A stretch of DNA of 64,000 bases from Flavobacteriaceae bacterium MAR_2010_72 (GTDB taxonomy: Bacteria; Bacteroidota; Bacteroidia; Flavobacteriales; Flavobacteriaceae), in the NCBI GenBank assembly GCA_003550275.1, contig QXCW01000002.1, positions 806,001 to 870,000 on the forward strand, given 5' to 3'. Positions within the stretch are counted from its first letter, which is position 1, and each line of letters starts with the position of its first letter. The notes under the pieces were generated by a model, which was not told the origin of the DNA, did not search any database, and was given only the letters and a program-made list of their open reading frames with translations. Below, one piece after another: positions 2-14,722 of this stretch. The position numbers and the translations under genes were made by a program.

Positions 2-3000
2 TGTGTAGGGTCTAACCCCGCTAATATTACTACTTCAATTGTAAATGGAAACCCACCATTTTCTTACCAATGGCAGTTAAATGGTTCTGATATTTTAGAT
101 GCTACTGATTCAAGCTATGACCCACCTGTCATAAATAGCGTTGGAATTCACCAGTACCGTGTTGTGGTTACCGATGTTTGTGGAAAATCGGCGACCTCTG
201 CTCCAAAAACCATTAATGTAAATCCAGACCCCTCAATTTCTGTAATTGCGGGTAATACCGAAATATGTAGTGGCTATACAGCCACCTTAGAAGTTTTAGG
301 AATTCCTGGTGCGGGTAATTGTAGTTATACGTGGCAAACAGGACCTTCTGTGTCTGGTCCTTGGACTAGCATTAATCCTGCAGAAAATAATGCACAGTAT
401 ACAACTCCATCATTAACTCAAACTTCTTATTACAGAGTGATATATAATTGTTCAGGAAGTGGTTGTGGTCAATCAACACAAGTTTTTACTGTCACAGTGA
501 AAAGTTTAATTGATTATGCAAACCTTCAATTTCCTGGTTCTGAAACCATATGCCCTGGTAATACTATTACGGCGTATGGTCAAGTGTTTGAAAATGGATT
601 AACTAATACTTCAAACAGCCTAGTAACTAGTATCAGTGCCCAATTTGCTTATCATACTAGTGATACGGATCCTTCGACTTGGCCAGAAGCCAATTGGACT
701 ACTGCTAATCCAACGCCTGGATATAATTTTGCTCAGAATAACGATGAATATTTCGCTACTTTTGGTGATGCACTTTCACCGGGTACTTATTATTATACAT
801 TCCGATATTCTTTAGAGGGTTGTGATTGGCAATATGGGGGTTATCCCAGTGGCTTCTGGAATGGAAATAACCAAAACAATGGGGTGCTTACGGTATTAGA
901 AGATCATACCTTAAGCTTATCATCTGCAAACAATAATCAAACAGTCTGTCCAAATACGGCAATCAACGACATCGTATATACATTCGGTGGTGGAGCGACC
1001 TCTGCATCGATTTCACCAGCACTGCCAGAAGGCTTGAACTTCAACCCTGCCACTGCAACCCTTAGTGGAACTCCAACGCAGCCTGGTATCTATAATTATA
1101 CAGTAACAACTGTTGGAAATAATTGTGAAACGCAGCAACTTCCAGGTTTAATTACCGTAAAAGAACTTCTAGATTATGTAAATCTTCAACATCCTGCTTC
1201 AGCAACCATTTGTGAAGGTGAAACTATAGATGTTTATGGTCAGGTTTACGAACCTGAATTGACAGAAGCCAATGGAGCAGGAAGCGGAATTGTAGCGCAG
1301 TTGGGATATGGAACGACTACAGATCCTACCTCTTGGACCAATTGGATTTCAACAGATTATTATGGTCAAGGTGGAATAAATAATAACAATGACGAATATA
1401 AAGCTACTTTCGGGGCTTCACTATCGCAAGGGACATATTATTATACTTTCCGTTATTCACTGAATAATTGTGAATGGCAGTATGGATTTTTTGTAGGGAC
1501 TTCTGATTTGGGTCAGCTTACTGTTAATTCAGTGCCAGTAATTACAACAACATATAATAATATTACTGCAGGTAACGATTCTGGACAATGTGGTGCTATA
1601 ATAATCTATGCAGACGCATCGGTTTCAGGAGTGCCAACGCCAAACATAACCTATTCACTGGCTTCAGGGTCATCTTTCCCTGTCGGTACAACTACAGTAA
1701 CTGTAACAGCTTCTAATAGTTGTGGAACAGATACAAAAACGTTTGATGTGACAGTTGAAGACAATGAAGCTCCTATTATCACTTGTGTTGCTAATAGCAT
1801 ACGAGATACTGATGCTGGACAATGTACGTATACCATTCAAGGAGCTGAATTTGATGCAACCTTCACCGACAACTGTGCTATTGGAAGTATTACAAACAAC
1901 TATACTAATAGTACATCTTTAGCCGGAGCAGTATTTCTAGAAGGTGCAACTACAGTTACTTGGACTGTTGATGATGGTCATGGTCAAACAGCAACTTGTA
2001 CAACTATTATTACTATAGAAGATAATGAAGCACCTGAATTAGCAGGCGTTCCTTCAGATGTTAATGCAGATTGTGATAATATCCCATTAGCAGCTTCGCC
2101 AACAGCGAGCGATAATTGTGACCCTTCACCTTCAATCGCACTAAATGAAGTAAGCACACAAGATCCTAATGCAGCAAATAGTGGTCATTACAACTATAGC
2201 ATCACTAGAACTTGGACCGCAACGGATGTGGCAGGAAACAGTAGTTCGGGTGTACAAGTGATAACGGTTCAGGATGTAACGCCACCAACGATTACGGATG
2301 TAGCAGACGTGACGGTCAACTGTGAGGACGATACCACTTCAGCGGCAACAGGTGTTGCCACAGGAAGTGACAACTGTTCGCCAGTGGCCATTACCCAAAG
2401 TGATGTTAGTACGCAAAACAATGACCCAAACACTGCAGGTCACTATAATTATACGATTACCAGAACCTGGAGAGCGACCGATGTTACGGGATTGTTCACG
2501 GAATCGACCCAAATCATCACGGTTCAGGATGTGACCCCACCAACGATTACGGATGTGGCAGATGTAACGGTCAACTGTGAGGACAATACCACTTCAGCGG
2601 CAACAGGTGTTGCCACAGGAAGTGACAACTGTTCGCCAGTGGCCATTACCCAAAGTGATGTCAGTACGCAAAACAATGATCCAAACACTGCGGGTCACTA
2701 CAATTATACGATTACCAGAACCTGGAGAGCGACCGATGTTACGGGATTGTTCACGGAATCGACCCAAATCATCACGGTTCAGGATGTGACCCCACCAACC
2801 ATTACTGATGTGGCAGATGTAACGGTCAACTGTGAGGACGATACCACTTCAGCGGCAACAGGTGTTGCCACAGGAAGTGACAACTGTTCGCCAGTGGCCA
2901 TTACCCAAAGTGATGTCAGTACGCAAAACAATGACCCAAACACTGCGGGTCACTATAATTACACGATTACCAGAACCTGGAGAGCGACCGATGTTACGGG

Positions 3001-6000
3001 ATTGTTCACGGAATCGACCCAAATCATCACGGTTCAGGATGTGACCCCACCAACGATTACGGATGTAGCAGACGTGACGGTCAACTGTGAAGACGATACC
3101 ACTTCAGCGGCAACAGGTGTTGCCACAGGAAGTGACAACTGTTCGCCAGTGGCCATTACCCAAAGTGATGTCAGTACGCAAAACAATGATCCAAACACTG
3201 CGGGTCACTACAATTATACGATTACCAGAACCTGGAGAGCGACCGATGTTACGGGATTGTTCACGGAATCGACCCAAATCATCACGGTTCAGGATGTGAC
3301 CCCACCAACGATTACGGATGTAGCAGACGTGACGGTCAACTGTGAGGACGATACCACTTCAGCGGCAACAGGAGTTGCCACAGGAAGTGACAACTGTTCA
3401 CCAGTGGCCATTACCCAAAGTGATGTCAGTACGCAAAACAATGACCCAAACACTGCAGGTCACTATAATTACACGATTACGAGAACCTGGAGAGCGACCG
3501 ATGTTACGGGATTGTTCACGGAATCGACCCAAATCATCTCGGTTCAGGATGTGACCCCACCAACGATTACGGATGTGGCAGATGTAACGGTCAACTGTGA
3601 GGACGATACCACTTCAGCGGCAACAGGAGTTGCCACAGGAAGTGACAACTGTTCACCAGTGGCCATTACCCAAAGTGATGTCAGTACGCAAAACAATGAT
3701 CCAAACCATGCAGGTCACTATAATTACACGATTACGAGAACCTGGAGAGCGACCGATGTTACGGGATTGTTCACGGAATCGACCCAAATCATCTCGGTTC
3801 AGGATGTGACCCCACCTATAGTAGATTGTGTTGGTTTAACTATTCAATTAAATGCTTCTGGAAATGCAACAATTACGGCAGACCAATTAAATAAGAATTC
3901 ATATGATAACTGTAGCCCAGTTAGTTTAAATGTCTCGCAAACAAGTTTTAGTTGTAGTGATATTGGAGGGGATTTGGATGAGCTAATCATTTCGGAATAT
4001 ATAAATGGTAGTAATGATAACAAAGCCATTGAGATTTTTAATGGAACTGGATTGCCAGTTGATCTATTAGCTGAAGGCTATACTTTGGAAATTTATCCAA
4101 ATGGAGGTGGTATAGTTCAAATTCCTTTGAATGGAACTATCAGTGATCGAGATGTTTTTGTTACAGCAAATAATTTTATTTCGTTCCCAATTGGTACTCG
4201 TTCACCAGTTGATTATTTAACCGATGACCTCTTTTTTGAAAGTAATGATGTTATTGCATTGTTGCATAATGGTCAAGTTGTAGATTATATCCCAGCCGCT
4301 GGATGGATGAATACTTTAGTAAGAAAAGACACGGTTTTAGGTGGAAATATCTCTGGAGATTTAACGGAATGGACTCAATATCCATTAAATACGTTTACTT
4401 TTCTCGGAAGTCACACAATTACCGTTATAGATAAAGGTAATAACGTACTTTTAACTGTAACCGATGTAAGTGGCAATTCAGCGACGTGTGAGGCTAAAGT
4501 TTATGTTGAAGACAATATTGATCCACATGTAGAATGTAACCCTATTACAATACAGTTAGATGCAACGGGGAACTATGTCTTAACACAAGCTGATTATAAT
4601 GCGGTTGGTCTTGGTAGTAGTGACGCCTGCGGTATTGCAAGTATGACCGTATTACCAAATGTATTTGACTGTACTAACGTAGGACCAAATCAGGTAACCT
4701 TAACAGTAACGGACAAAAATGGAAATTCTGACACTTGTACTACAACTATAACTGTTGAAGACAAGGTAAATCCTATAGCAGTTTGTCAAAGCATTACCAT
4801 TCAATTGGATGCTAATGGAAATGCCAGTATTGTTCCAGCCAATATTGATGGTGGTTCATCTGATGCTTGTGGATTTACATTGTCCGCAAGTCAAACGGTA
4901 TTTGATTGTTCTAATGTTGGAGCAAACACAGTGACATTAACGGTCACAGACGCTAATGGAAATACTGCTGAATGTGATGCAACAGTTACTGTTGAAGATA
5001 ATGTAGACCCAACGGCAATTTGTAAAGATATTACTGTTTATCTTGGTGCTGACGGGACAGTAACCATAGCTGAAGACGCAGTGAACAATGGTTCTAACGA
5101 TGCTTGTGGTGGATTGACTTATGATACTGATATCACGTCATTCACATGTGCAGATGTAAACAATCCAGTATCAGTAATGCTTACGGTAACTGACGCCAAT
5201 GGAAATAGTTCCAGCTGCTCGGCTACTGTAACGGTAATAGGCATCATACCAGACGTTTCTATATCGCAAGGGCCATTGCCAGAATTCTGTCAAGGTGCGT
5301 TTGACGTGTTGACTGTACAATTAGGTTCGGGCCAAACAGAAGACGATATTAGGTCGTATGCATGGTCCTATACAGGCGTTGATGCAGGATTCCCAATAGG
5401 AGAACCAACCAATGAAAATAGTATTAGGGTTAAAGGAAATGGCACCTATACCGTGGCTGTGACTTCAGAGACTAATTGTACGACAACGGTATCTTATACA
5501 GTTACTGGGTTTGATGCTACAGCATTAATCTCGTCCTATACCATTTTAGCGAAGAACGAGGTCTTCTTGCACGGCTCTAATATTGTACAGACCGGCGGGG
5601 TAGGAGCGACAGAACCAAATACAGGAACCATCAAGTTGCATCAGGCAAGTACCATTGTTGGCTTTGGTAAAGCACCATTATTTAACTTGAATCAAGGTAG
5701 CCAGATAAATGGAGGAACCATTAACCAACCAGCAAATCCGGTTATACCGCCGTTCCAATTCAATACGGTGTCAAATGCAAGTAGTCCTAACGTGGTTGTA
5801 ACGACCAATACAACGCTTTCAGGAGCTATTTATGGCACTGTAGAGGTTAGAGATGGTGCTACGGTAACCTTCTCTCAATCCAATATTTATATCAATAACT
5901 TGAAAACCTTCCAAGGCGCCAAAATAGAATTTACAGGATGTGCCAATGTGTATCTCAATGAAAAATTCATGTTGGCTCAAAATGGGGTTATTAATTCAGG

Positions 6001-6532
6001 TGGTGAAAATGTAGTGTTCTATGTCAATGAAGATGTTCAGATCGAAAAAGGATCTAATGTAAAAGCACGTATGCACTTAAATGGTCATGAGCTATTGGCA
6101 AAAGGTGAAGCTGGGAACAAAAATAAAGCTCCAGAGCCAACCTACATGACGGGACTGTTTATAGCGAACAGGGTACACGGTAGTATTAACGTGGTATGGA
6201 ATGCCGACGATGTATGTAGTCCTTGTCCAATTGAGGTGCCTGCAAGCTCAAGTGCTGCAAGGCCAGAACCAAGTATAGATAGTCTAGAGGAATTTGCCGT
6301 GGCATCATGGCCAAACCCTTCTAAAGCCAACTTTAGCTTGAAAGTCAAAACTCTGGATAGAACCAATCGCATTCAAATTCAGGTGTATGACATGAGCAAC
6401 AAATTGGTACACACTAAACAGTTTAATCCAGACGATGAGTACCGTTTTGGAAACGAATTGGAAGCAGGTGTGTATATGGTGAAAATTTCCCAAGGTGGGA
6501 AAGTAAAAACCGTCCGATTGGTTAAGTATTAA
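2..6532 (+). CDS. Giant secreted adhesin-like protein, T9SS substrate (5' end outside window)
   Basis: The frame is open from the window edge, so this is the last 2176 residues of a longer protein; a GTG at 164 is internal. In order: Ig/PKD-like beta-sandwich domains (to about 1530), HYR-type repeats with the DNC/DAC and EDN-P motifs (about 1550-2270), six near-identical 85-residue HYR-like units (2273-3802), an HYR unit interrupted by a lamin-tail-like domain (about 3967-4434), three more HYR units (about 4510-5240), an Ig-like stretch, a beta-helix-like region (about 5530-6200), and a C-terminal type A sorting domain beginning near 6313 (PNPS...LEAGVYMVKI...VRLVKY). The tail marks export by the type IX system and attachment to, or release from, the cell surface. 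Even spacing of cysteines in HYR units suggests disulfides. Likely adhesion or surface-layer role; the ligand is unknown. Domain names come from motif reading, not a profile search. Confidence 0.9.
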   Translation, partial: CVGSNPANITTSIVNGNPPFSYQWQLNGSDILDATDSSYDPPVINSVGIHQYRVVVTDVCGKSATSAPKTINVNPDPSISVIAGNTEICSGYTATLEVLGIPGAGNCSYTWQTGPSVSGPWTSINPAENNAQYTTPSLTQTSYYRVIYNCSGSGCGQSTQVFTVTVKSLIDYANLQFPGSETICPGNTITAYGQVFENGLTNTSNSLVTSISAQFAYHTSDTDPSTWPEANWTTANPTPGYNFAQNNDEYFATFGDALSPGTYYYTFRYSLEGCDWQYGGYPSGFWNGNNQNNGVLTVLEDHTLSLSSANNNQTVCPNTAINDIVYTFGGGATSASISPALPEGLNFNPATATLSGTPTQPGIYNYTVTTVGNNCETQQLPGLITVKELLDYVNLQHPASATICEGETIDVYGQVYEPELTEANGAGSGIVAQLGYGTTTDPTSWTNWISTDYYGQGGINNNNDEYKATFGASLSQGTYYYTFRYSLNNCEWQYGFFVGTSDLGQLTVNSVPVITTTYNNITAGNDSGQCGAIIIYADASVSGVPTPNITYSLASGSSFPVGTTTVTVTASNSCGTDTKTFDVTVEDNEAPIITCVANSIRDTDAGQCTYTIQGAEFDATFTDNCAIGSITNNYTNSTSLAGAVFLEGATTVTWTVDDGHGQTATCTTIITIEDNEAPELAGVPSDVNADCDNIPLAASPTASDNCDPSPSIALNEVSTQDPNAANSGHYNYSITRTWTATDVAGNSSSGVQVITVQDVTPPTITDVADVTVNCEDDTTSAATGVATGSDNCSPVAITQSDVSTQNNDPNTAGHYNYTITRTWRATDVTGLFTESTQIITVQDVTPPTITDVADVTVNCEDNTTSAATGVATGSDNCSPVAITQSDVSTQNNDPNTAGHYNYTITRTWRATDVTGLFTESTQIITVQDVTPPTITDVADVTVNCEDDTTSAATGVATGSDNCSPVAITQSDVSTQNNDPNTAGHYNYTITRTWRATDVTGLFTESTQIITVQDVTPPTITDVADVTVNCEDDTTSAATGVATGSDNCSPVAITQSDVSTQNNDPNTAGHYNYTITRTWRATDVTGLFTESTQIITVQDVTPPTITDVADVTVNCEDDTTSAATGVATGSDNCSPVAITQSDVSTQNNDPNTAGHYNYTITRTWRATDVTGLFTESTQIISVQDVTPPTITDVADVTVNCEDDTTSAATGVATGSDNCSPVAITQSDVSTQNNDPNHAGHYNYTITRTWRATDVTGLFTESTQIISVQDVTPPIVDCVGLTIQLNASGNATITADQLNKNSYDNCSPVSLNVSQTSFSCSDIGGDLDELIISEYINGSNDNKAIEIFNGTGLPVDLLAEGYTLEIYPNGGGIVQIPLNGTISDRDVFVTANNFISFPIGTRSPVDYLTDDLFFESNDVIALLHNGQVVDYIPAAGWMNTLVRKDTVLGGNISGDLTEWTQYPLNTFTFLGSHTITVIDKGNNVLLTVTDVSGNSATCEAKVYVEDNIDPHVECNPITIQLDATGNYVLTQADYNAVGLGSSDACGIASMTVLPNVFDCTNVGPNQVTLTVTDKNGNSDTCTTTITVEDKVNPIAVCQSITIQLDANGNASIVPANIDGGSSDACGFTLSASQTVFDCSNVGANTVTLTVTDANGNTAECDATVTVEDNVDPTAICKDITVYLGADGTVTIAEDAVNNGSNDACGGLTYDTDITSFTCADVNNPVSVMLTVTDANGNSSSCSATVTVIGIIPDVSISQGPLPEFCQGAFDVLTVQLGSGQTEDDIRSYAWSYTGVDAGFPIGEPTNENSIRVKGNGTYTVAVTSETNCTTTVSYTVTGFDATALISSYTILAKNEVFLHGSNIVQTGGVGATEPNTGTIKLHQASTIVGFGKAPLFNLNQGSQINGGTINQPANPVIPPFQFNTVSNASSPNVVVTTNTTLSGAIYGTVEVRDGATVTFSQSNIYINNLKTFQGAKIEFTGCANVYLNEKFMLAQNGVINSGGENVVFYVNEDVQIEKGSNVKARMHLNGHELLAKGEAGNKNKAPEPTYMTGLFIANRVHGSINVVWNADDVCSPCPIEVPASSSAARPEPSIDSLEEFAVASWPNPSKANFSLKVKTLDRTNRIQIQVYDMSNKLVHTKQFNPDDEYRFGNELEAGVYMVKISQGGKVKTVRLVKY
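2273..3802 (+). repeat. Six tandem 255-bp in-frame repeats
   Basis: Six head-to-tail units of exactly 255 bp (85 codons) start at 2273, 2528, 2783, 3038, 3293 and 3548. They differ at only a few bases each. A diverged seventh copy lies just upstream (about 2027-2272). Several variants alternate or pair: ACC versus ATC in the AATGAC/TCCAAAC segment reads C,T,C,T,C,T along the units, while units 5 and 6 share private changes (GGAGTT, ACGAGA, ATCTCG). This fits expansion by a 510-bp dimer plus gene conversion. Confidence 0.97.
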
Positions 6533-6553
6533 TCACTCATTAAAATCATAAAG

Positions 6554-6588
6554 AAAAAAGCCTCCTAGTTTATAGTGAGGCTTTTTTT
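6554..6588 (+). terminator. Rho-independent terminator after the adhesin gene
   Basis: GCCTC (6560-6564) pairs with GAGGC (6577-6581) around a 12-nt loop and is followed by seven T. It lies 28 bp after the adhesin stop codon. Confidence 0.85.
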
Positions 6589-6662
6589 ATGACAAGAGAT
6601 AAGGGGTGCTAACTTTATGAGTGCCTAATTAGAATCCTTTAAAGCTTCATGAGCTTTTCATA

Positions 6663-6896
6663 TTAATCTCTACTTCCGTCTTGAATGGGTTCAGTCCCAG
6701 GCATTAGCTTGTTAAGTATAAAATACACAGGACAGAATTTAGTGACCGGACTAATTATTTGAAGCGCAGCCACAGCACCAGCCATATACAGCCATTTAAT
6801 ATTAACCATAAAAGCCAGTACAACACTGGTGAGATAGAGCACGCCTACAATGGCATCATGAAGTCTGATTTTCGTTTGTGAATGTGTTGTTTTCAT
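6663..6896 (-). CDS. YgaP-like (DUF2892) small membrane protein
   Basis: A 77-residue protein with two hydrophobic segments (about residues 14-32 and 35-50) followed by a CPVYFILNKLMPGT motif. This matches the transmembrane part of the YgaP/DUF2892 family, where a conserved Cys-Pro follows the second helix. In other bacteria the domain occurs alone or fused to a rhodanese; here it stands alone, so no enzymatic activity is expected. It is monocistronic, convergent with the adhesin gene and divergent from the LuxR gene. Function of stand-alone members is not established. Confidence 0.8.
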   Translation of the reverse strand: MKTTHSQTKIRLHDAIVGVLYLTSVVLAFMVNIKWLYMAGAVAALQIISPVTKFCPVYFILNKLMPGTEPIQDGSRD

Positions 6897-7038
6897 CTGT
6901 AATTTGTTTTAAAGTGTTTATTGTTAGTGAGTTGCAAATAAAGTTACAAATTTATTCTTTTGAAATTCAAATTGGGGTTAAATAATAGTTCCTAGATTTA
7001 GGATTATTGGGTCTATAATTGTAGATTTAAGCTATTAG

Positions 7039-7830
7039 ATGAAAAGTAAACTCATACTCGACTTATACAGTTCTCATAGTAATTACTTGGCCCAAGAATC
7101 GATTACTAATTACAATGTCAATGTAAAAGCATTGTTGTCAAATTTGTTTAGCCCTGGACCAAGTTTTTATTATATCATCGATTCTCCTACGCTTACTGCA
7201 AAACTTTTGAGTCAAGGTATAGAAGATATCTTAAGTATTTCGAAACAAGAATTTTCAGTCGAAAAAATAATTGAACTCATTCACCCAGACGATTTTAATT
7301 GGTTTTTGCGGTGTGAGGATGTCGTAGCTTATTTTTTAAAAAATTGTGTTGCCCCCGAACAAATTGTTAATTATAAAATTAGCTATTGTTTGCGCTTGAA
7401 ATCAAAAAACAATGAGTACAAATTGTTTTTATTGCAAACACTTACACTTAAAACAACAGAAGATGGTGCGCTATTAAAAGTGTTTGGCTGTATCTCTGAT
7501 ATCAATCACATCACTACACATAATAATAGAAAATTGTCATTGATAGGATTAAACGGAGAGCCTTCATACCTAGAGTTGGATGCTTTTAATCACGAGTTAT
7601 TTAAAAACTTCAAGCCGTTTGTGAGCCTTACTGATGAAATTCCGTTTACTTCTCGCGAATTGGAAATTATTAAATTATTGGGTGAAGGATTAACCATGAA
7701 CGAAATTTCAGACCAATTAAACATCGCCTTTGGAACGGTGAATACACATCGAAAAAATATTTTAAAAAAATCGGATTGTAAGAATATCACGGAGCTTGTG
7801 GCCGACTGTATTAGGAAAGGTTATATTTAA
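7039..7830 (+). CDS. PAS-LuxR family transcriptional regulator
   Basis: 263 residues. Residues about 45-165 look like a PAS-type sensor (an IHPDDF motif near residue 77 and a strand pattern ending GCISDINHI), and residues about 200-263 form a LuxR-type helix-turn-helix (FTSRELEIIKLL...TVNTHRKNILKK). There is no receiver domain, so it probably senses a ligand or redox state directly, or acts with another sensor. It sits 111 bp upstream of the secreted multi-gene cluster on the same strand and is the obvious candidate regulator, though only by position. Confidence 0.85.
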   Translation: MKSKLILDLYSSHSNYLAQESITNYNVNVKALLSNLFSPGPSFYYIIDSPTLTAKLLSQGIEDILSISKQEFSVEKIIELIHPDDFNWFLRCEDVVAYFLKNCVAPEQIVNYKISYCLRLKSKNNEYKLFLLQTLTLKTTEDGALLKVFGCISDINHITTHNNRKLSLIGLNGEPSYLELDAFNHELFKNFKPFVSLTDEIPFTSRELEIIKLLGEGLTMNEISDQLNIAFGTVNTHRKNILKKSDCKNITELVADCIRKGYI

Positions 7831-7941: not shown

Positions 7942-9798
7942 ATGAAAAATTACATACTTATACTATTATGGATAAGTTCATTATCCTTAAATGCTCAACA
8001 AATAAATGGAGGCTATAGTCAAGGTCTAGTGGCTTTGGTGCCTAATAAATTTGAAGACACCCATGACTATAAAAATATTAGGCCTGATGTACATGCTGGA
8101 TTTTGGAAAATACGAGTTGCTCCCGCTAAGTGGGCATGGGAAGGATTGCAAGTAATTTTTGAAGTTGATATTAATCAACCAACATTGGTAAGAGGTGCAA
8201 ATGCAGAAGGTGGCGAACATGATTATGATATTTCCGAATTTAATTTAGCCATAACCGGTAGTATGGAATTTAGTATTGAGGGGGATTACACCAACCCAAA
8301 TACTCAAGAGAGAGTATCGTTTACAAAGAATGTCTACGTTCCAAACTTGGGATCTAATGCACTAACTGATAGCGAGCTGTTTGGGTATTCTGGAAATGTC
8401 ACTAATTTTAAAACTGTACAAGAGATCATTAATTACCTTAAAGTTGAGATTCGGTCAATTAAAGCCCTGAACAAATATATTAGTGGCTATCAAAGGATAG
8501 ATATCAATTTAGGACATATTCTTAAAGAAAAAAGGAATGATATTCAATTTAATAATCTTCTTGCTGATGCTAAAAATGCCGATGAACTTGGCCGAACCGA
8601 TGAAGCCATCGAAAAATACGAAGCCTTATACGCACTAAATAAAGATCCAAAAATAAAACAGCGCATTGAAGAGCTTAAAGCTTGGAAACAAAAACAGGAA
8701 GACGAGAAAAATGCGTTAGTGCAACCACAGGCAGAGAATAACAAGCAACCTAACGAAAAAGAAATTGAGGAAAGCTCTGATAGGAGACAAGGGGTTGTTG
8801 ATACCTTTGACCATACCATACCCAAACATGAGCTTACCACTACAACGCTAGATTTTTGGGGTAATCCCGTAGTTACACAAAATGCAGTAGGCGAAGCTAA
8901 AACCGTAAGTTATGCAGGTACTGTTGTAGAAAATAACAGCACATATCAACAACAAATGCAACTTCGGGAAGACAATGTTGCAAAAAAAGCAGCTTGGGAG
9001 CAAGAAGAGGCTTTAAAACGGCGAAGCGTAGATGATTATAATTCGAATTTGGTTGGGCAGAGTAATGATGTCTATCAACAATCTTTAAACATAGATAAGG
9101 ATATGAACGAAGCATTGGCCCAAATAAGCCCAGAAACCTATGGTGACCCTAAAGCAATGATACAAACAGGGATGAACCTTTTAAGTACCGCCAATGGCAA
9201 TTTAGGACAGGCATACACTGGAGCAGCTTTAGGTGGTGTTGGCCTTGCCACTGGTTTATTGAATGATTTAGCTAAAGCCAAGGCAAAAAAAGAAGCGGCT
9301 GCCGAACGTGCACGCATCCGTAAAGAAGCTGAAGCTAAAAAGAAGGCGATTAGGGAATCCATTAAAAAAGCAAGATTGGCAGTGTTTAAAGGTTACCCAC
9401 AAGGCGAATTACCTTTATCTTCAACAGCTTCAAAAGGCAATAATCTTTACTATTTTGTATATGCCTACAATCAAGACCAGTTATTACAGGATAGCCCAAA
9501 AGTTAAGACCACTAAAGTGTTCGCCATTGGCAAATATCCGGATGGTACCTGGCCTATGAAAACAAAAATTGAAGATGAGGTAAATAGCCTAACGCCACTT
9601 CAAGAAACCATTTGCGGTCCATTTTACAGCTTATCAGAAGCGAATTCGGTATATAATTCCTTTTTAAGTTATGTAGATAAAACCAATATGGGAATTGATG
9701 CCCTTACCTATGAAGGTTTTAATGCACATAGTGAAACCGAAAACCTTCAACAAACCGCTCCAAAAGTTGACTTTTGGGGAAATCCAATAAAAAATTAA
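7942..9798 (+). CDS. Secreted protein of unknown function, first gene of the modular cluster
   Basis: The ATG at 7942 is chosen because it starts a clean signal peptide (MKNYILILLWISSLSLNAQQ); the frame is open further upstream to 7846. The mature protein (about 600 residues) has an N-terminal beta-rich part, a TPR-like segment around residues 212-240 (NADELGRTDEAIEKYEALYALNKD), low-complexity Lys/Glu/Gln linkers, and an Ala/Lys/Glu/Arg-rich coiled coil around residues 430-475 after a Gly/Ala stretch. The motif DFWGNP occurs twice, mid-protein and at the extreme C-terminus (VDFWGNPIKN). I do not recognise a family. Its stop is 4 bp from the next gene, so it is probably the first gene of one operon with the FGE-like and LolA-like paralogues. 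It lacks a lipobox and a T9SS tail, so a periplasmic location is most likely. Confidence 0.8.
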   Translation: MKNYILILLWISSLSLNAQQINGGYSQGLVALVPNKFEDTHDYKNIRPDVHAGFWKIRVAPAKWAWEGLQVIFEVDINQPTLVRGANAEGGEHDYDISEFNLAITGSMEFSIEGDYTNPNTQERVSFTKNVYVPNLGSNALTDSELFGYSGNVTNFKTVQEIINYLKVEIRSIKALNKYISGYQRIDINLGHILKEKRNDIQFNNLLADAKNADELGRTDEAIEKYEALYALNKDPKIKQRIEELKAWKQKQEDEKNALVQPQAENNKQPNEKEIEESSDRRQGVVDTFDHTIPKHELTTTTLDFWGNPVVTQNAVGEAKTVSYAGTVVENNSTYQQQMQLREDNVAKKAAWEQEEALKRRSVDDYNSNLVGQSNDVYQQSLNIDKDMNEALAQISPETYGDPKAMIQTGMNLLSTANGNLGQAYTGAALGGVGLATGLLNDLAKAKAKKEAAAERARIRKEAEAKKKAIRESIKKARLAVFKGYPQGELPLSSTASKGNNLYYFVYAYNQDQLLQDSPKVKTTKVFAIGKYPDGTWPMKTKIEDEVNSLTPLQETICGPFYSLSEANSVYNSFLSYVDKTNMGIDALTYEGFNAHSETENLQQTAPKVDFWGNPIKN

Positions 9799-9802
9799 AT
9801 TT

Positions 9803-11041
9803 ATGAAATTACCTATTTTTCTCTTATTCATTATTACATTTTCAATACAAAGCAATGCCCAAAACACCGTAGCCAAATTTAAATACGAAGACGCCGAAAA
9901 AGCATTTTACGATAACAAATTTGAAGACTGTATTCAACTATTAACCGAAACGGAAGCCTTGTTAGGGCAATCAGCACCTAATATTTTACATCTGCGTATT
10001 TTGGCAGAACATAAGTTGCTAGAGCAAAACCCTTTGCACAGCTTTGTCTTAATAGAAAACTTAAGAAATCATTGTAATAGCTATTTGCAAAACTATGACA
10101 TTGCGGGCTTGGAAGAGAAATTTAGAGATGTGTATGAAATTAGCAATACATTAAACCAACACCCTGATACCAAGGAAGCTTTTGATGTTAAAGTAGCCGA
10201 AGTTGAGCACCATAAAAAAAGTATTATAACTCAAATACAGGAAAATATGGTGTTGATAGAAGGGGGTGTGTTTGTAATGGGCCATAAAAAAGCATATTAT
10301 ACCAATGAACAAAAAGAACACAAGGTAAGAGTCGGTGATTTTAAAATGGGTAAGTATGAGGTGACCTATGAACAGTATAAACTGTTCATAAATCAAACCG
10401 GTTATAAAGATGAGGGCGTCGTTTATAAGATAGGAGGCAAAGTAATAGTTGACCCTCTTAATTTAGATTGGAAATACGGTGAGGATAAATTACCAAGAAC
10501 ATCAGAGGATAATAATCTTCCAGTAATAAACGTATCTTGGAATGGTGCCATGGCCTTTTGCCAGTGGTTAAGTAAGGTGACTGGTGACTACTATCGCTTA
10601 CCTACTGAAGCCGAATGGGAATATGTAGCTAAAGATGACAATCCGTTCAATACAGGCAGATGGTATTGGGTAGATTATAATGGTTTTGGTTGGTTTGAGA
10701 GTAATTCTAATAAAAAAATACATCATGTTGGTCAAAAACAACCCAATTCAAAAGGGGTTTATGATCTTTTTGGAAATGCTATAGAATGGTGTTATGATTG
10801 GTATGGTAAAAATTACTATAATGTAAGTCCAGATTTAAACCCATCAGGACCAGCTTCAGGAAGTGAAAAGGTAACTAGGGGAGGTAATATTTATGGTAAG
10901 GCTAATTTCGATAAAACCAAAACCTATATGACCATACGATATACTGGTAGAATTAATGAAATAAGGAATGACGTACAGGGATTTCGTCTCGTGATGCCCT
11001 TAACAGACGAAGGAAAAGCAATAGGCAACTCTTTAAATTAA
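9803..11041 (+). CDS. Secreted FGE-sulfatase-domain protein, paralogue 1
   Basis: 412 residues: signal peptide (1-20), a module of about 110 residues shared with three neighbours (starts QNTVAKFKYEDAEKAF, ends DIAGLEEKFRDVYEI), a short linker, then an FGE-sulfatase/SUMF1-type domain from about residue 148. Domain hallmarks are MVLIEGGVFVMG, YEVTYEQYKLF, YYRLPTEAEWEY, GVYDLFGNAIEWC and the closing GFRLVMP. The cysteine pair that true formylglycine-generating enzymes carry after the RGG motif is absent (TRGGNIYGKANFDK), so sulfatase activation is unlikely; many such domains in Bacteroidota are structural or binding modules (GldJ and GldK, for example). It ends with the tail GKAIGNSLN, which reappears in the relic at 12139-12321. 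Gap to the next gene is 12 bp. Confidence 0.88.
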   Translation: MKLPIFLLFIITFSIQSNAQNTVAKFKYEDAEKAFYDNKFEDCIQLLTETEALLGQSAPNILHLRILAEHKLLEQNPLHSFVLIENLRNHCNSYLQNYDIAGLEEKFRDVYEISNTLNQHPDTKEAFDVKVAEVEHHKKSIITQIQENMVLIEGGVFVMGHKKAYYTNEQKEHKVRVGDFKMGKYEVTYEQYKLFINQTGYKDEGVVYKIGGKVIVDPLNLDWKYGEDKLPRTSEDNNLPVINVSWNGAMAFCQWLSKVTGDYYRLPTEAEWEYVAKDDNPFNTGRWYWVDYNGFGWFESNSNKKIHHVGQKQPNSKGVYDLFGNAIEWCYDWYGKNYYNVSPDLNPSGPASGSEKVTRGGNIYGKANFDKTKTYMTIRYTGRINEIRNDVQGFRLVMPLTDEGKAIGNSLN

Positions 11042-11092
11042 AACATTAATGATATGAAACGATTATTTTTTATTGGTGCCGTTTTAGTCTTT
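11012..11092 (+). repeat. 81-bp direct repeat, copy 1
   Basis: This block, spanning the 3' end of the FGE-like gene, the spacer and the first codons of the LolA-like gene, recurs at 12292-12372 with about two mismatches, 1280 bp away. It marks the boundary of a tandem segmental duplication. Confidence 0.95.
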
Positions 11093-12139
11093 ACGCTTAA
11101 TGTTAATTCGCAAAACACAGTCGCCAAATTTAAATTTGAAGACGCCGAAAAGGCCTATTATGAAAATAAATTTGAAGACTGCATTCAACTTTTAACCGAA
11201 ACAGAAGCCCTGTTGGGACAAACCGCTCCCAATATTTTGCATTTGGGCATTTTGGCTGAACACAAACTGTTGGAACAAAACCCCATGCACAGCTATGCCT
11301 TAATTGAAAACTTAAGAAACCATTGCAACACCTATTTGCAAGACTATGACATTGCCGGTTTGGAAGAAAAGTTTAGGGAAGTCTTTGAAGTAAGCAATGG
11401 ATTAAAAAAGTATCCTAACGATATACTAGAATTTAATGCGATTAAAGATTCCATTGCCCAAGTAAAAAAAGAAGCTTATGATAAGGTAGTGAGTATTATA
11501 GAAAATTATTTAAATGCAATTGGAGGTAAGGAAAAGCTCTCCCAAGTACGTTCTATTCATAAAATTATTACACTTAAGGGTGTTTCTTATGATACTCATG
11601 AGAAGTTTTTGTTTCCAGATAAGTTTGCTTTATTTGGATCTAGGTCTGAAACTGGAAATAAAAAGAAAGGACAGCAATATGTATATAATGGCAACGAATG
11701 TTACTATGAAATAAAAGGTGAAAAAGAAAATTTAACAGCTATGACATGTAAATCCTTTCAGAGTAATATAAACATGAATAGCTTCGCTGAACTACAATTT
11801 TTTAATGAAGGTTATGACCTTCAATATTATGGGGAAAATGAAAAAGGTCAAGCTGCCATATTGATTACTTATCCAGATGCCACTAAAGAGTGGCGCTATT
11901 ATAATTTAAAAACTCATTTATTAGAAACAATAATTTATAATGGAGGATATTATTGGAATTACTATCCCATAGTGCAAACTATAACCGATTTATCAGATTA
12001 TAGAGAGGTTGAAGGAGTAATACTTCCTTTTGTTTATGAGCATTCCATTTTTTTTGATAATCAAAAAGCTCGAAAGTTTGTTAGAGCTAGTAAAATTGTT
12101 TTTATTAATAAGAATGTTAACGTAGAAGATTTTAACTAA
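11054..12139 (+). CDS. Secreted LolA-like protein with the shared N-module, paralogue 2
   Basis: 361 residues: signal peptide (MKRLFFIGAVLVFTLNVNSQ), then the same roughly 110-residue helical module as its neighbours, then a C-terminal domain from about residue 138 starting IIENYLNAIGGKEKLSQVRSI. That opening and the following beta strands resemble the LolA/outer-membrane-lipoprotein-sorting-like fold, often found as secreted single-domain proteins in Bacteroidota; the resemblance is by eye. Such folds bind lipids or hydrophobic ligands. The gene follows paralogue 1 by 12 bp, and its stop overlaps the ATG of the gene relic (TAATG). Confidence 0.75.
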   Translation: MKRLFFIGAVLVFTLNVNSQNTVAKFKFEDAEKAYYENKFEDCIQLLTETEALLGQTAPNILHLGILAEHKLLEQNPMHSYALIENLRNHCNTYLQDYDIAGLEEKFREVFEVSNGLKKYPNDILEFNAIKDSIAQVKKEAYDKVVSIIENYLNAIGGKEKLSQVRSIHKIITLKGVSYDTHEKFLFPDKFALFGSRSETGNKKKGQQYVYNGNECYYEIKGEKENLTAMTCKSFQSNINMNSFAELQFFNEGYDLQYYGENEKGQAAILITYPDATKEWRYYNLKTHLLETIIYNGGYYWNYYPIVQTITDLSDYREVEGVILPFVYEHSIFFDNQKARKFVRASKIVFINKNVNVEDFN

Positions 12140-12321
12140 TGAAAACCCAAATTATTTTTGCTTTTTTTAAGTTTATTACCCATTCTGCATTTTGAACGAA
12201 ATTTGTCAGTTTGATTCCAATGAAGCACCCACACTCCCTCGTTTTTGTAAAATGGGAAACCAAAGCTTGGGTCGAAGTTCCTACGGATTATGGAAAAGCA
12301 ATTGGCAACTCTTTAAATTAA
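12139..12321 (+). pseudogene. Relic of a deleted FGE-type paralogue
   Basis: Two disconnected ends of one gene. At 12139 an ATG overlapping the previous stop opens an 18-residue signal-peptide-like reading (MKTQIIFAFFKF...) that stops at 12195. At the other end, 12220-12321 reads ...VEVPTDYGKAIGNSLN then stop, the same tail as the FGE-like paralogue 1. The middle is missing. The simplest reading is that an FGE-type gene stood between the two LolA-type genes and lost nearly all its body by internal deletion. Confidence 0.7.
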
Positions 12322-12372
12322 AATATTAATGATATGAAACGATTATTTTTTATTGGTGCCGTTTTAGTCTTT
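12292..12372 (+). repeat. 81-bp direct repeat, copy 2
   Basis: Near-identical to 11012-11092. It includes the relic tail codons, the AATGATATG start region and the signal-peptide codons of the next gene. Confidence 0.95.
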
Positions 12373-13539
12373 GCACTCAATGCTAATACGCAAAACACAG
12401 TCGCCAAATTTAAATACGAAGACGCCGAAAAGGCCTATTATGAGAATAAGTTTGAAGACTGCATTAAACTATTGACCGAAACGGAAGCCCTGTTGGGGCA
12501 AACCGCTCCCAATATTTTGCACTTGCGCATTTTGGCAGAGCACAAATTGTTGGAACAAAACCCCATGCACAGTTATACCATAATAGAAAATATAAGAAAC
12601 CATTGCGACACTTATTTGCAAGACTATGACATTGCTGGGCTCGAAGAGAAATATCGAGATGTGTACGAGATTCAAAATACATTAGGCCGATATCCTTCCA
12701 ATAAATCTGCATTTGACGAAAAAATTGCAGCAGTGGAAGCTTCTAAAATTAAAAACAGTTTAGAAGCCAAAAAGATTATTGAAAGATACCTCGAGGCCAT
12801 AGGAGGGAAAGATAAGGTAGCCAATGTAAAAACAATGTTTAGAAGTGGGGAAGTTTTCGGAGAGCCTTTTCCTTTATTGATTGAAGATAAAAAAATGGCA
12901 CCCAATAAATTTACCAGTAGTCGATATTTTAAAAACAGGAAGAAAAAAGGCGATTTAATTTATACAGATGTGTTTAATGGTGAAACTGGCCATAAACGAA
13001 ATAAAACAAGTAAAACGCCATTAACAGAAACCGAAATTTTAACTTTTAAAGAGCATGCCATATTCCCAGAGTTAAATTATCTCGCTTTACCTTATAAACT
13101 GCATATTGTAGATACTCTAAATTTGGCATCAGGTAAGGCGTATAAGCTGAAAATTGAAAGTCCTTTGGGTAAAGTTTTATTTAGATTTTATAATGTGTTG
13201 GATAACTTATTATATAAAATTGAGGTTAAAAATGAGGAGCCAAACACACAAGGAGAAATCATATTGAGTGATTATAAAGATGTAAACGGCATCCTGATGC
13301 CTTTTACCATACAATCAGGAAGCTCTGCTTTGGGCACCGTCACTTCTATATCAGGAGACCAAGAAGCATTAGAGAAATTGCAAAATAAGCAAGTGATGGC
13401 CATTGCTATAATGGGAAAAAATCAGATGTCATCAATTAAAGATATGAACACGACTAATGTGCCTAAAAAAACCATTACGGTTTGGTCTGAAATTAAAATT
13501 AATGAAGAAGTTACTGAAAGCGACTTCAAATTAGACTAA
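12334..13539 (+). CDS. Secreted LolA-like protein with the shared N-module, paralogue 3
   Basis: 401 residues: signal peptide almost identical at DNA level to paralogue 2 (MKRLFFIGAVLVFALNANTQ), the shared N-terminal module (about residues 20-120), then a LolA-like domain starting near residue 145 (IIERYLEAIGGKDKVANVKTM). The C-terminal domain is clearly diverged from paralogue 2, whereas the N-module is highly similar, so the two halves have evolved at different rates. The next gene starts 4 bp after its stop. Likely periplasmic; ligand unknown. Confidence 0.75.
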   Translation: MKRLFFIGAVLVFALNANTQNTVAKFKYEDAEKAYYENKFEDCIKLLTETEALLGQTAPNILHLRILAEHKLLEQNPMHSYTIIENIRNHCDTYLQDYDIAGLEEKYRDVYEIQNTLGRYPSNKSAFDEKIAAVEASKIKNSLEAKKIIERYLEAIGGKDKVANVKTMFRSGEVFGEPFPLLIEDKKMAPNKFTSSRYFKNRKKKGDLIYTDVFNGETGHKRNKTSKTPLTETEILTFKEHAIFPELNYLALPYKLHIVDTLNLASGKAYKLKIESPLGKVLFRFYNVLDNLLYKIEVKNEEPNTQGEIILSDYKDVNGILMPFTIQSGSSALGTVTSISGDQEALEKLQNKQVMAIAIMGKNQMSSIKDMNTTNVPKKTITVWSEIKINEEVTESDFKLD

Positions 13540-13543
13540 AAAA

Positions 13544-14722
13544 ATGAAACATATCTTAATTGGCCTTATTGTTCTTTTAGGTATATCAGCATCTGCCCAA
13601 AACACGGTAGCAAAATTCAAATACGAAGACGCCGAAAGAGCATTTTATGATAACAAATTTGAAGACTGTATTAAGCTATTAACCGAAACCGAAGCCCTGT
13701 TGGGGCAAACCGCTCCCAATATTTTGCACTTGCGTATTATGGCAGAGCATAAACTATTTAAAAGCAATCCTTATGAGAGTTTTGAAAAACTAGAACAAAT
13801 ACGAAACCATTGTACTACTTACCTTATCAATTATGATATAGCCGGTTTAGAAGAAAAATATCGAGATGTGTACAATATTCAAAACAGCTTAAATGAGTAC
13901 CCTCAAAGTAGAGCTTCCTTTGATGAAAAAGTAAACTTAATAAATAGAGAGGCTGATAAAAAAGCAGCTGAACAAGAAAAAGTATATGTCAAAAATAGGA
14001 TGTTTATCGATAGCTTATTACCTATGGTTTTGGTTGAAGGAGGAACATTTTTAATGGGTCTCAAAAATGAAAAAGAATTGAAATGGATTCATAGGTCACA
14101 ATCTCACCTTTATAAAGATGCCATGCCCCAACATCAAGTTACCATAAATGCCTTTAAAATAGCTATTTTGGAAACTACCAATCAGATTTGGAACTGGGTT
14201 TTTGATATTACAGAATCAATTAATGATGAGGATTCAAAAAAGCCTGTAGTGGCTTCATGGGATGTAACTCAAGAGTTCATATTAAAACTCAACATCCATA
14301 CTGGGAGAAACTATAGATTACCAACAGAGGCAGAATGGGAATACGCAGCTAGGGGAGGAAACAAAAGTAAGAACTATCAATTCAGTGGTTCAGATAATAA
14401 AAATGAAGTGAGTTGGAATGATGCAAATGCCTCTTTTTTTGAAACCAAGACCCCTAAAAGTCACAATGTTGGTCTAAAAGCAGCAAATGAATTAGGAATT
14501 TATGATATGACAGGAAATGTCTGGGAATGGTGTAGCGATTGGTATGCGGCCGACTATTATAATAATTCCCCTAGCAATAATCCATTAGGCCCTGACAATG
14601 GAAACCTACGTGTAGCGCGAGGAGGGTCTGTTCAATGCAATTTTGGTTGCTATACAGTTAATCGTACTTTGGGCTTTGATTTAGCAACAGGGTTTGTAGG
14701 CTTTAGATTGGTTATGGAGTAA
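13544..14722 (+). CDS. Secreted FGE-sulfatase-domain protein, paralogue 4
   Basis: 392 residues: signal peptide (MKHILIGLIVLLGISASAQ), the shared N-module (to about residue 118), a Lys/Glu-rich linker, and an FGE-sulfatase-type domain from about residue 160 (MVLVEGGTFLMG, YRLPTEAEWEYAARGG, GIYDMTGNVWEWCSDWY, GFRLVME). It is closer to canonical members than paralogue 1. After the ARGGS motif it carries two cysteines (QCNFGCY) spaced C-x3-C, near the C-x4-C redox/copper pair of true formylglycine-generating enzymes but one residue short. Activity is therefore uncertain. Last gene of the cluster; it lacks the GKAIGNSLN tail of paralogue 1. Confidence 0.87.
   Translation: MKHILIGLIVLLGISASAQNTVAKFKYEDAERAFYDNKFEDCIKLLTETEALLGQTAPNILHLRIMAEHKLFKSNPYESFEKLEQIRNHCTTYLINYDIAGLEEKYRDVYNIQNSLNEYPQSRASFDEKVNLINREADKKAAEQEKVYVKNRMFIDSLLPMVLVEGGTFLMGLKNEKELKWIHRSQSHLYKDAMPQHQVTINAFKIAILETTNQIWNWVFDITESINDEDSKKPVVASWDVTQEFILKLNIHTGRNYRLPTEAEWEYAARGGNKSKNYQFSGSDNKNEVSWNDANASFFETKTPKSHNVGLKAANELGIYDMTGNVWEWCSDWYAADYYNNSPSNNPLGPDNGNLRVARGGSVQCNFGCYTVNRTLGFDLATGFVGFRLVME

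Follow-up and report, generated by a model that had tools for sequence, protein, structure and literature searches.

In the cellulosome, a single scaffoldin offers repeated docking sites to exchangeable heads that have one common docking module, the dockerin. Small TPR domains, such as those of Sgt2, Tah1, FKBP38, and Sec72, read a C-terminal motif of a partner. Among Bacteroidota envelope proteins, PorK has the fold of formylglycine-generating enzyme (FGE) without its two catalytic cysteines and acts as a docking hub in the T9SS ring (PMC12421860), LolA/LolB proteins adopt a half-barrel (PMC11885536; P. gingivalis LolA3, 9tp6), and TANFOR polymorphic toxins join a constant N-terminal module to swapped C-terminal domains (PMC7073777). 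Here, we describe a gene cassette of Bacteroidota in which a secreted, scaffold-like protein is followed by proteins that fuse one N-terminal module to differing C-terminal domains (heads). Its existence as a conserved unit is close to certain, and neither the motif nor the domain combination was found described in the open-access literature searched.

The cassette was recognized in a 64,000-nucleotide stretch of Flavobacteriaceae bacterium MAR_2010_72 (the window; Table 1). A sequence-only reading had proposed four consecutive genes with a common signal peptide and a helical module of ∼110 residues, headed by a 618-aa secreted protein at 4-bp spacing, and the open reading frames bear out both points: gaps from the 618-aa gene through the four module genes are 4, 12, 194, and 4 bp, the first ∼130 residues of the module genes align end to end while the remainder does not, and the mature N-modules, which constitute one direct-repeat family of four copies, exhibit 67 to 81% protein identity. 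The products carry a hydrophobic Sec-type signal with the cleavage region ...AQ-N and no lipobox Cys. The proposed head order (FGE, LolA, LolA, FGE) was also correct, except that the “deleted FGE” placed between the second and third genes proved to be just a 42-nt duplicate of the 3′ terminus of gene 1 (the first FGE gene) and the spacer behind it (40/42 nt identical). No FGE-like DNA was found upstream of this block in a DNA-level comparison, which favors the left end of a copied tract over a decayed gene. The LuxR/GerE assignment of the upstream “PAS-LuxR” gene was confirmed, while its PAS_3 match stayed below threshold (E = 0.075). Elsewhere in the window, positions 164 to 6532 encode a 2122-aa secreted protein with a C-terminal T9SS type A sorting domain (TIGR04183, 39.5 bits); its gene contains a 255-bp tandem array (2264–3816; 6.1 copies, 96% identical) that is translated into 85-aa repeats of nearly identical sequence.

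Table 1 Features of the cassette and its upstream regulator in the window
Feature	Position	Strand	Basis or remark
PAS-like LuxR-family regulator, 263 aa	7039–7830	+	GerE, E = 1.7e-14; only copy in genome
Scaffold-like secreted protein, 618 aa	7942–9798	+	ORF, structure prediction, motif search
Scaffold conserved C-terminal domain (profile A4)	9376–9756	+	Without database match
C-terminal tail motif DFWGNPIKN, coding region	9769–9795	+	Motif search
Gene 1: N-module and FGE-fold head, 412 aa, without catalytic Cys pair	9803–11041	+	ORF, Pfam
Gene 2: N-module and LolA-like head, 361 aa	11054–12139	+	ORF, alignment, predicted structure
42-nt copy of gene 1 3′ end and spacer (11012–11053)	12292–12333	+	DNA comparison
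Gene 3: N-module and LolA-like head, 401 aa	12334–13539	+	ORF, predicted structure
Gene 4: N-module and FGE-fold head, 392 aa, C-x3-C not C-x4-C	13544–14722	+	ORF, Pfam

AlphaFold2 predicts the N-module as five helices and a long capping helix (pLDDT >90 over most of residues 21–160), i.e., a predicted TPR-like solenoid of antiparallel helix pairs directly behind the signal peptide. In a structure search, the model matched TPR chains at Z of about 9 to 11, among them the peptide-bound TPRs of Sgt2 (5lyn), Sec72 (5l0y), Tah1 (4cgu, Z 10.3), and FKBP38 (5mgx); BamD and designed TPRs score like these peptide binders, and Z values in this range fit any small TPR. The window modules had no match to a Pfam TPR profile above the cut-off. 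The heads of genes 1 and 4 match the FGE family (PF03781, E = 1e-46 and 3e-39). However, the catalytic C-x4-C pair expected after the RGGS region was absent from the FGE heads read, and a catalytic FGE was rejected on this ground; binding or docking is more likely, and “cargo handling,” as proposed in the sequence-only reading, is not supported as such. The heads of genes 2 and 3 had no Pfam or NCBIfam match. An AlphaFold2 model of the gene 3 head (pLDDT about 40–90) matched a LolA-superfamily structure, 3buu (Foldseek E = 7e-5; VIA Z = 12.7 over 164 residues), and the gene 2 head aligns with the gene 3 head at about 30%, supporting a modeled LolA-type half-barrel fold for both. Most likely, the heads are ligand- or partner-binding domains, one kind a catalysis-less FGE fold and the other a lipid- or acyl-binding half-barrel of the LolA type.

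Twelve distinct cassettes were found across several Bacteroidota orders in distantly related hosts: the window, MAG Ww86 (L019), Sinomicrobium (L020), Flagellimonas amoyensis (L026), Sphingobacterium alkalisoli (L027), Sphingobacterium sp. SGG-5 (L028), Parapedobacter composti (L029), Flavobacterium rakeshii/beibuense (L030/L032, counted once), Filimonas zeae (L031), L071, L072, and L073. In all 12, the scaffold gene comes first and is followed directly by one to several module genes; Sinomicrobium, Flagellimonas, SGG-5, and Flavobacterium (L030) have a single, likewise conserved, module. Outside the window, the module is fused to FGE, FKBP, Sel1, and unassigned C-terminal domains, and relatives of the 618-aa protein always adjoin it. 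Two doubts had been attached to the locus beforehand, that the module might be local or free of constant neighbors and that it might be of TPR type; the 12 cassettes dispose of the former, and the latter agrees with the predicted fold of the module. In the family sample, the module profile matched 3/299 genomes and the 618-aa protein, as an independent query, the same three; in the phylum sample, the scaffold C-domain profile matched 4/395 genomes, with strong, adjacent module matches in the same four, low frequencies that both include the source genome itself. Because the loci underlying profile A4 had been located by means of the module, the independent tests of co-occurrence are the single 618-aa query and the two genomes (G885 and G996) first reached in the phylum sample via A4 alone. 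Contig profile searches with window modules only returned no loci, and those with a seven-member alignment returned nine; since the module search scores only the ∼10 top candidates of each genome, it may overlook diverged modules. Carriage by plasmids, phages, or viruses was rejected, the scaffold C-domain being absent from the plasmids and viral contigs searched and the N-module having no match among the phages searched. An anti-phage defense system was also rejected, as the PADLOC match was only of the LuxR HTH to part of a CARF model.

Heads vary considerably among these cassettes. FGE heads number two in the window, one in Flagellimonas, three in Sphingobacterium, and two intact plus one split in Parapedobacter, where the third module gene (L029:5275–7615) is interrupted by an insertion sequence (transposase 6248–7099). 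The Sinomicrobium head is a degenerate FGE, and that of Flavobacterium is FGE followed by FKBP. Filimonas has three heads with Sel1 repeats and the MAG two LolA-like heads (by similarity), neither cassette containing any FGE head; the heads of L071 to L073 had no domain assigned. Several neighboring genes were also observed. Immediately downstream of the S. alkalisoli and P. composti cassettes lie related secreted proteins of 432 aa (L027:11108–12406 and L029:7757–9055), which may be outer-membrane barrels and have no Pfam match; the Filimonas cassette is directly preceded by an MscS-type mechanosensitive channel that has a large additional N-terminal region (L031:1941–4439); and a sulfatase gene occurs near L029 only. 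In another genome (G038; L010:197–1498 and 1501–2451, with L021 covering the same place), three DFWxG-like repeats occur in a secreted protein whose gene directly precedes that of a TPR protein; the latter is weakly module-like and ends in a different C-terminal domain, and the pair is possibly a distant relative of the cassette.

The window scaffold consists of a signal peptide, an N-terminal beta domain (∼54–181), TPR-like helices (∼183–265), a first DFWGNP motif (304), long helices, a conserved domain (∼490–590), and the tail DFWGNPIKN (610–618). The AlphaFold2 model reproduces the beta domain, the TPR-like and long helices, and a beta-alpha C-domain, at a mean pLDDT of 68 and pTM of 0.36, values at which the relative arrangement of domains is not readable. 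When the complete 618-aa model was searched with Foldseek and VIA, no match was confident (E >0.06, best Z 6.5), and the list covered mostly the beta domain. The C-domain had no Pfam or PDB sequence match. Its order of helices and strands hints at SPOR, an identity to which neither sequence nor fold searches added support, the fold list being filled by the N-terminal domain. In 11 of the 12 scaffolds, the D[FY][WF] motif occurs two to three times, often with K/T/Q-rich linkers between the copies, and one copy always falls within the last 12 residues; the L073 scaffold has a repeated YGTLIK-like tail and no DFW motif. In the 3.4-Mb source genome, the D[FY]WGNP DNA pattern occurs twice, both times in the scaffold gene. 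Copy number of the motif does not track the number of heads. Its three classes (DFWGNP, DYWGNP, and DFWNN) each form one group on both the scaffold tree and the module tree, and they cut across host families: Sinomicrobium and Flavobacterium have DYWGNP, and other Flavobacteriaceae, Sphingobacterium, and Parapedobacter have DFWGNP. Distances on the two trees are correlated (r = 0.78, Mantel p = 0.0004), indicating co-inheritance as a unit, which is compatible with contact and expected even without it.

In three genomes, module DNA is homogenized by gene conversion and the heads have diverged to saturation. The two MAG genes are 97% identical over the module (82% at 4-fold sites), as compared to 43% over the signal peptides and 66% over the heads (4-fold, 40%). 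The Parapedobacter pair is 90% identical over the module (4-fold, 83%) and 52% over the head (4-fold, 27%). In window genes 2 and 3, the similar tract begins 42 nt before the start codon and ends at about codon 100, with heads at 47%. Among codons for the same residue, identical codons were more frequent in module than in head by Fisher test for the MAG pair (92% versus 57%, p = 2e-9), the Parapedobacter pair (89% versus 37%, p = 1e-13), and window genes 2 and 3 (74% versus 44%, p = 2e-4); homogenization of the Sphingobacterium pair was not significant (p = 0.07). Between-genome controls exhibited no significant difference between module and head (p = 0.74, 0.09, and 0.23), arguing against codon-level constraint. 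A head clade of Flagellimonas, Sphingobacterium b, and Parapedobacter 3 spans three genera (support 97/94), whereas modules group by genome; AU tests gave p = 0.011 for heads, 0.053 for module protein, and 0.037 for module DNA, the tested groups having been selected post hoc from the tree.

A LuxR-family regulator adjoins four cassettes (window, Sinomicrobium, SGG-5, and Parapedobacter), the homologs differing in position and orientation. S. alkalisoli and Flavobacterium have a divergently oriented 7TMR-DISMED2 histidine kinase instead, and in Flagellimonas and G130, strong regulator orthologs lie apart from a cassette, near other secreted FGE proteins. The cassette may be switched by the adjacent PAS-like LuxR regulator or, elsewhere, by a 7TMR-DISM-type histidine kinase. 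This regulator is also linked to another type of cluster, seen at L075:8990–15415 and L076:8542–13461, where close orthologs lie near secreted FGE-domain proteins and a common ∼143-aa protein, with neither module nor scaffold; the 143-aa proteins were considered and rejected as free-standing relatives of the scaffold C-domain (hhalign probability about 1%). In S. alkalisoli, a LuxR-PAS paralog follows a 456-aa secreted protein whose general layout is like that of the L073 scaffold (L078:5631–7966).

The sequence-only reading had suggested a common docking partner of the N-modules, perhaps the first protein. Synteny, mirrored trees, and a TPR-type module opposite a conserved C-terminal motif favor such docking, and it is from these that we infer the binding itself. 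The cassette products would form a modular assembly, periplasmic or otherwise exported, in which the TPR module reads one or more C-terminal motifs of the scaffold and different heads are thereby mounted on one scaffold; gene conversion of the module would keep paralogs compatible with the same motif and leave the heads free to diversify. That a periplasmic scaffold docks interchangeable proteins headed by the TPR-like module through its tail motif, with conversion maintaining a compatible dock, is in our estimate an evenly balanced proposition. A cellulosome-like, mix-and-match envelope assembly of Bacteroidota, built on a DFW-repeat scaffold, swappable heads, and module-confined gene conversion, is put forward as a tentative reading that falls somewhat short of an even chance. 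The products could instead form one complex in which the N-module contacts the beta domain, the TPR-like stretch, or the C-domain of the scaffold, or itself, with the DFW tail serving another partner, for example an outer-membrane protein. The conserved C-domain and the scaffold's own TPR-like stretch are possible contact sites, and the 432-aa protein that follows two cassettes is a possible tail partner; however, the other cassettes lack this protein, and no short feature is as constant as the tail motif, which is repeated and falls into classes that track module class. We consider such an arrangement unlikely, though worth keeping in view.

Constancy of the module would say little about docking if it served mainly as a recombination platform for exchange and diversification of heads, as in polymorphic toxins or shufflons. 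In several genomes, homology blocks cover the module and give way to divergent flanks; together with the incongruence between head and module trees and the 42-nt tract end in the window, this is consistent with such a role. The heads, however, do not resemble toxins and are not followed by small immunity-like genes, no silent store of head fragments was seen, and the module is conserved in single-module cassettes as well, leaving recombination as the main role quite improbable. Membership in a noncatalytic branch of the gliding/T9SS FGE machinery (GldK/PorK/GldJ) is suggested by GldK being the best NCBIfam match of both FGE heads and by the reuse of the FGE fold as a docking hub in PorK (PMC12421860). 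Yet the scores (76 and 84 bits) fall far short of the 350 bits required by the GldK model (TIGR03525), the window products are not lipoproteins and have an extra TPR module, and the MAG and Filimonas cassettes have no FGE head, making this origin very unlikely. The tandem paralogs could also be explained if a TPR-fusion gene lacking any dedicated partner had simply been duplicated in place, given that TPR domains are common and that weak TPR matches occur without a scaffold (L011). Such a lone local duplication is refuted by the co-occurrence of scaffold and module, strictly adjacent in 12 cassettes across the phylum and with matching profile results, and it retains next to no probability.

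Were docking through the tail motif true, the cassette would be a simple plug-in system in which a constant, gene-converted connector is split from freely diversifying heads, and the DFWGNP, DYWGNP, and DFWNN classes would constitute a naturally occurring set of motif-TPR pairs. The FGE fold without catalysis and the LolA fold, usually encountered in T9SS and lipoprotein transport, would then appear in a new common setting. Two short constructs would suffice to test the prediction.

The described systems resemble this arrangement in different respects. TANFOR toxins likewise combine a constant N-terminal module with swapped C-terminal domains, but the cassette module is TPR-like, its heads are FGE, LolA, Sel1, and FKBP rather than toxin-like domains, and immunity genes are lacking, with no small gene of this type between the window units in the ORF list. 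In contrast to the cellulosome, the cassette contains no cohesin or dockerin by Pfam, its docking is proposed from the evidence above, and its heads are not known enzymes. The TPR co-chaperones offer the same mode of recognition as proposed here, and the FKBP-TPR combination recurs; unlike them, the cassette proteins are bacterial and exported, and the motif is DFWGNPIK-like rather than EEVD; common ancestry is not claimed. Bacteroidota LolA/LolB share a half-barrel with the predicted heads of genes 2 and 3 (Z 9–13), which differ in being fused behind a TPR module, tied to a scaffold, and similar only beyond the reach of Pfam. PorK/GldK and the window FGE heads are alike in belonging to Bacteroidota envelope proteins and in having an FGE fold without the catalytic cysteine pair; however, PorK/GldK is a ring-forming lipoprotein without a TPR N-module, whereas the FGE heads of the cassette are interchangeable with non-FGE heads.
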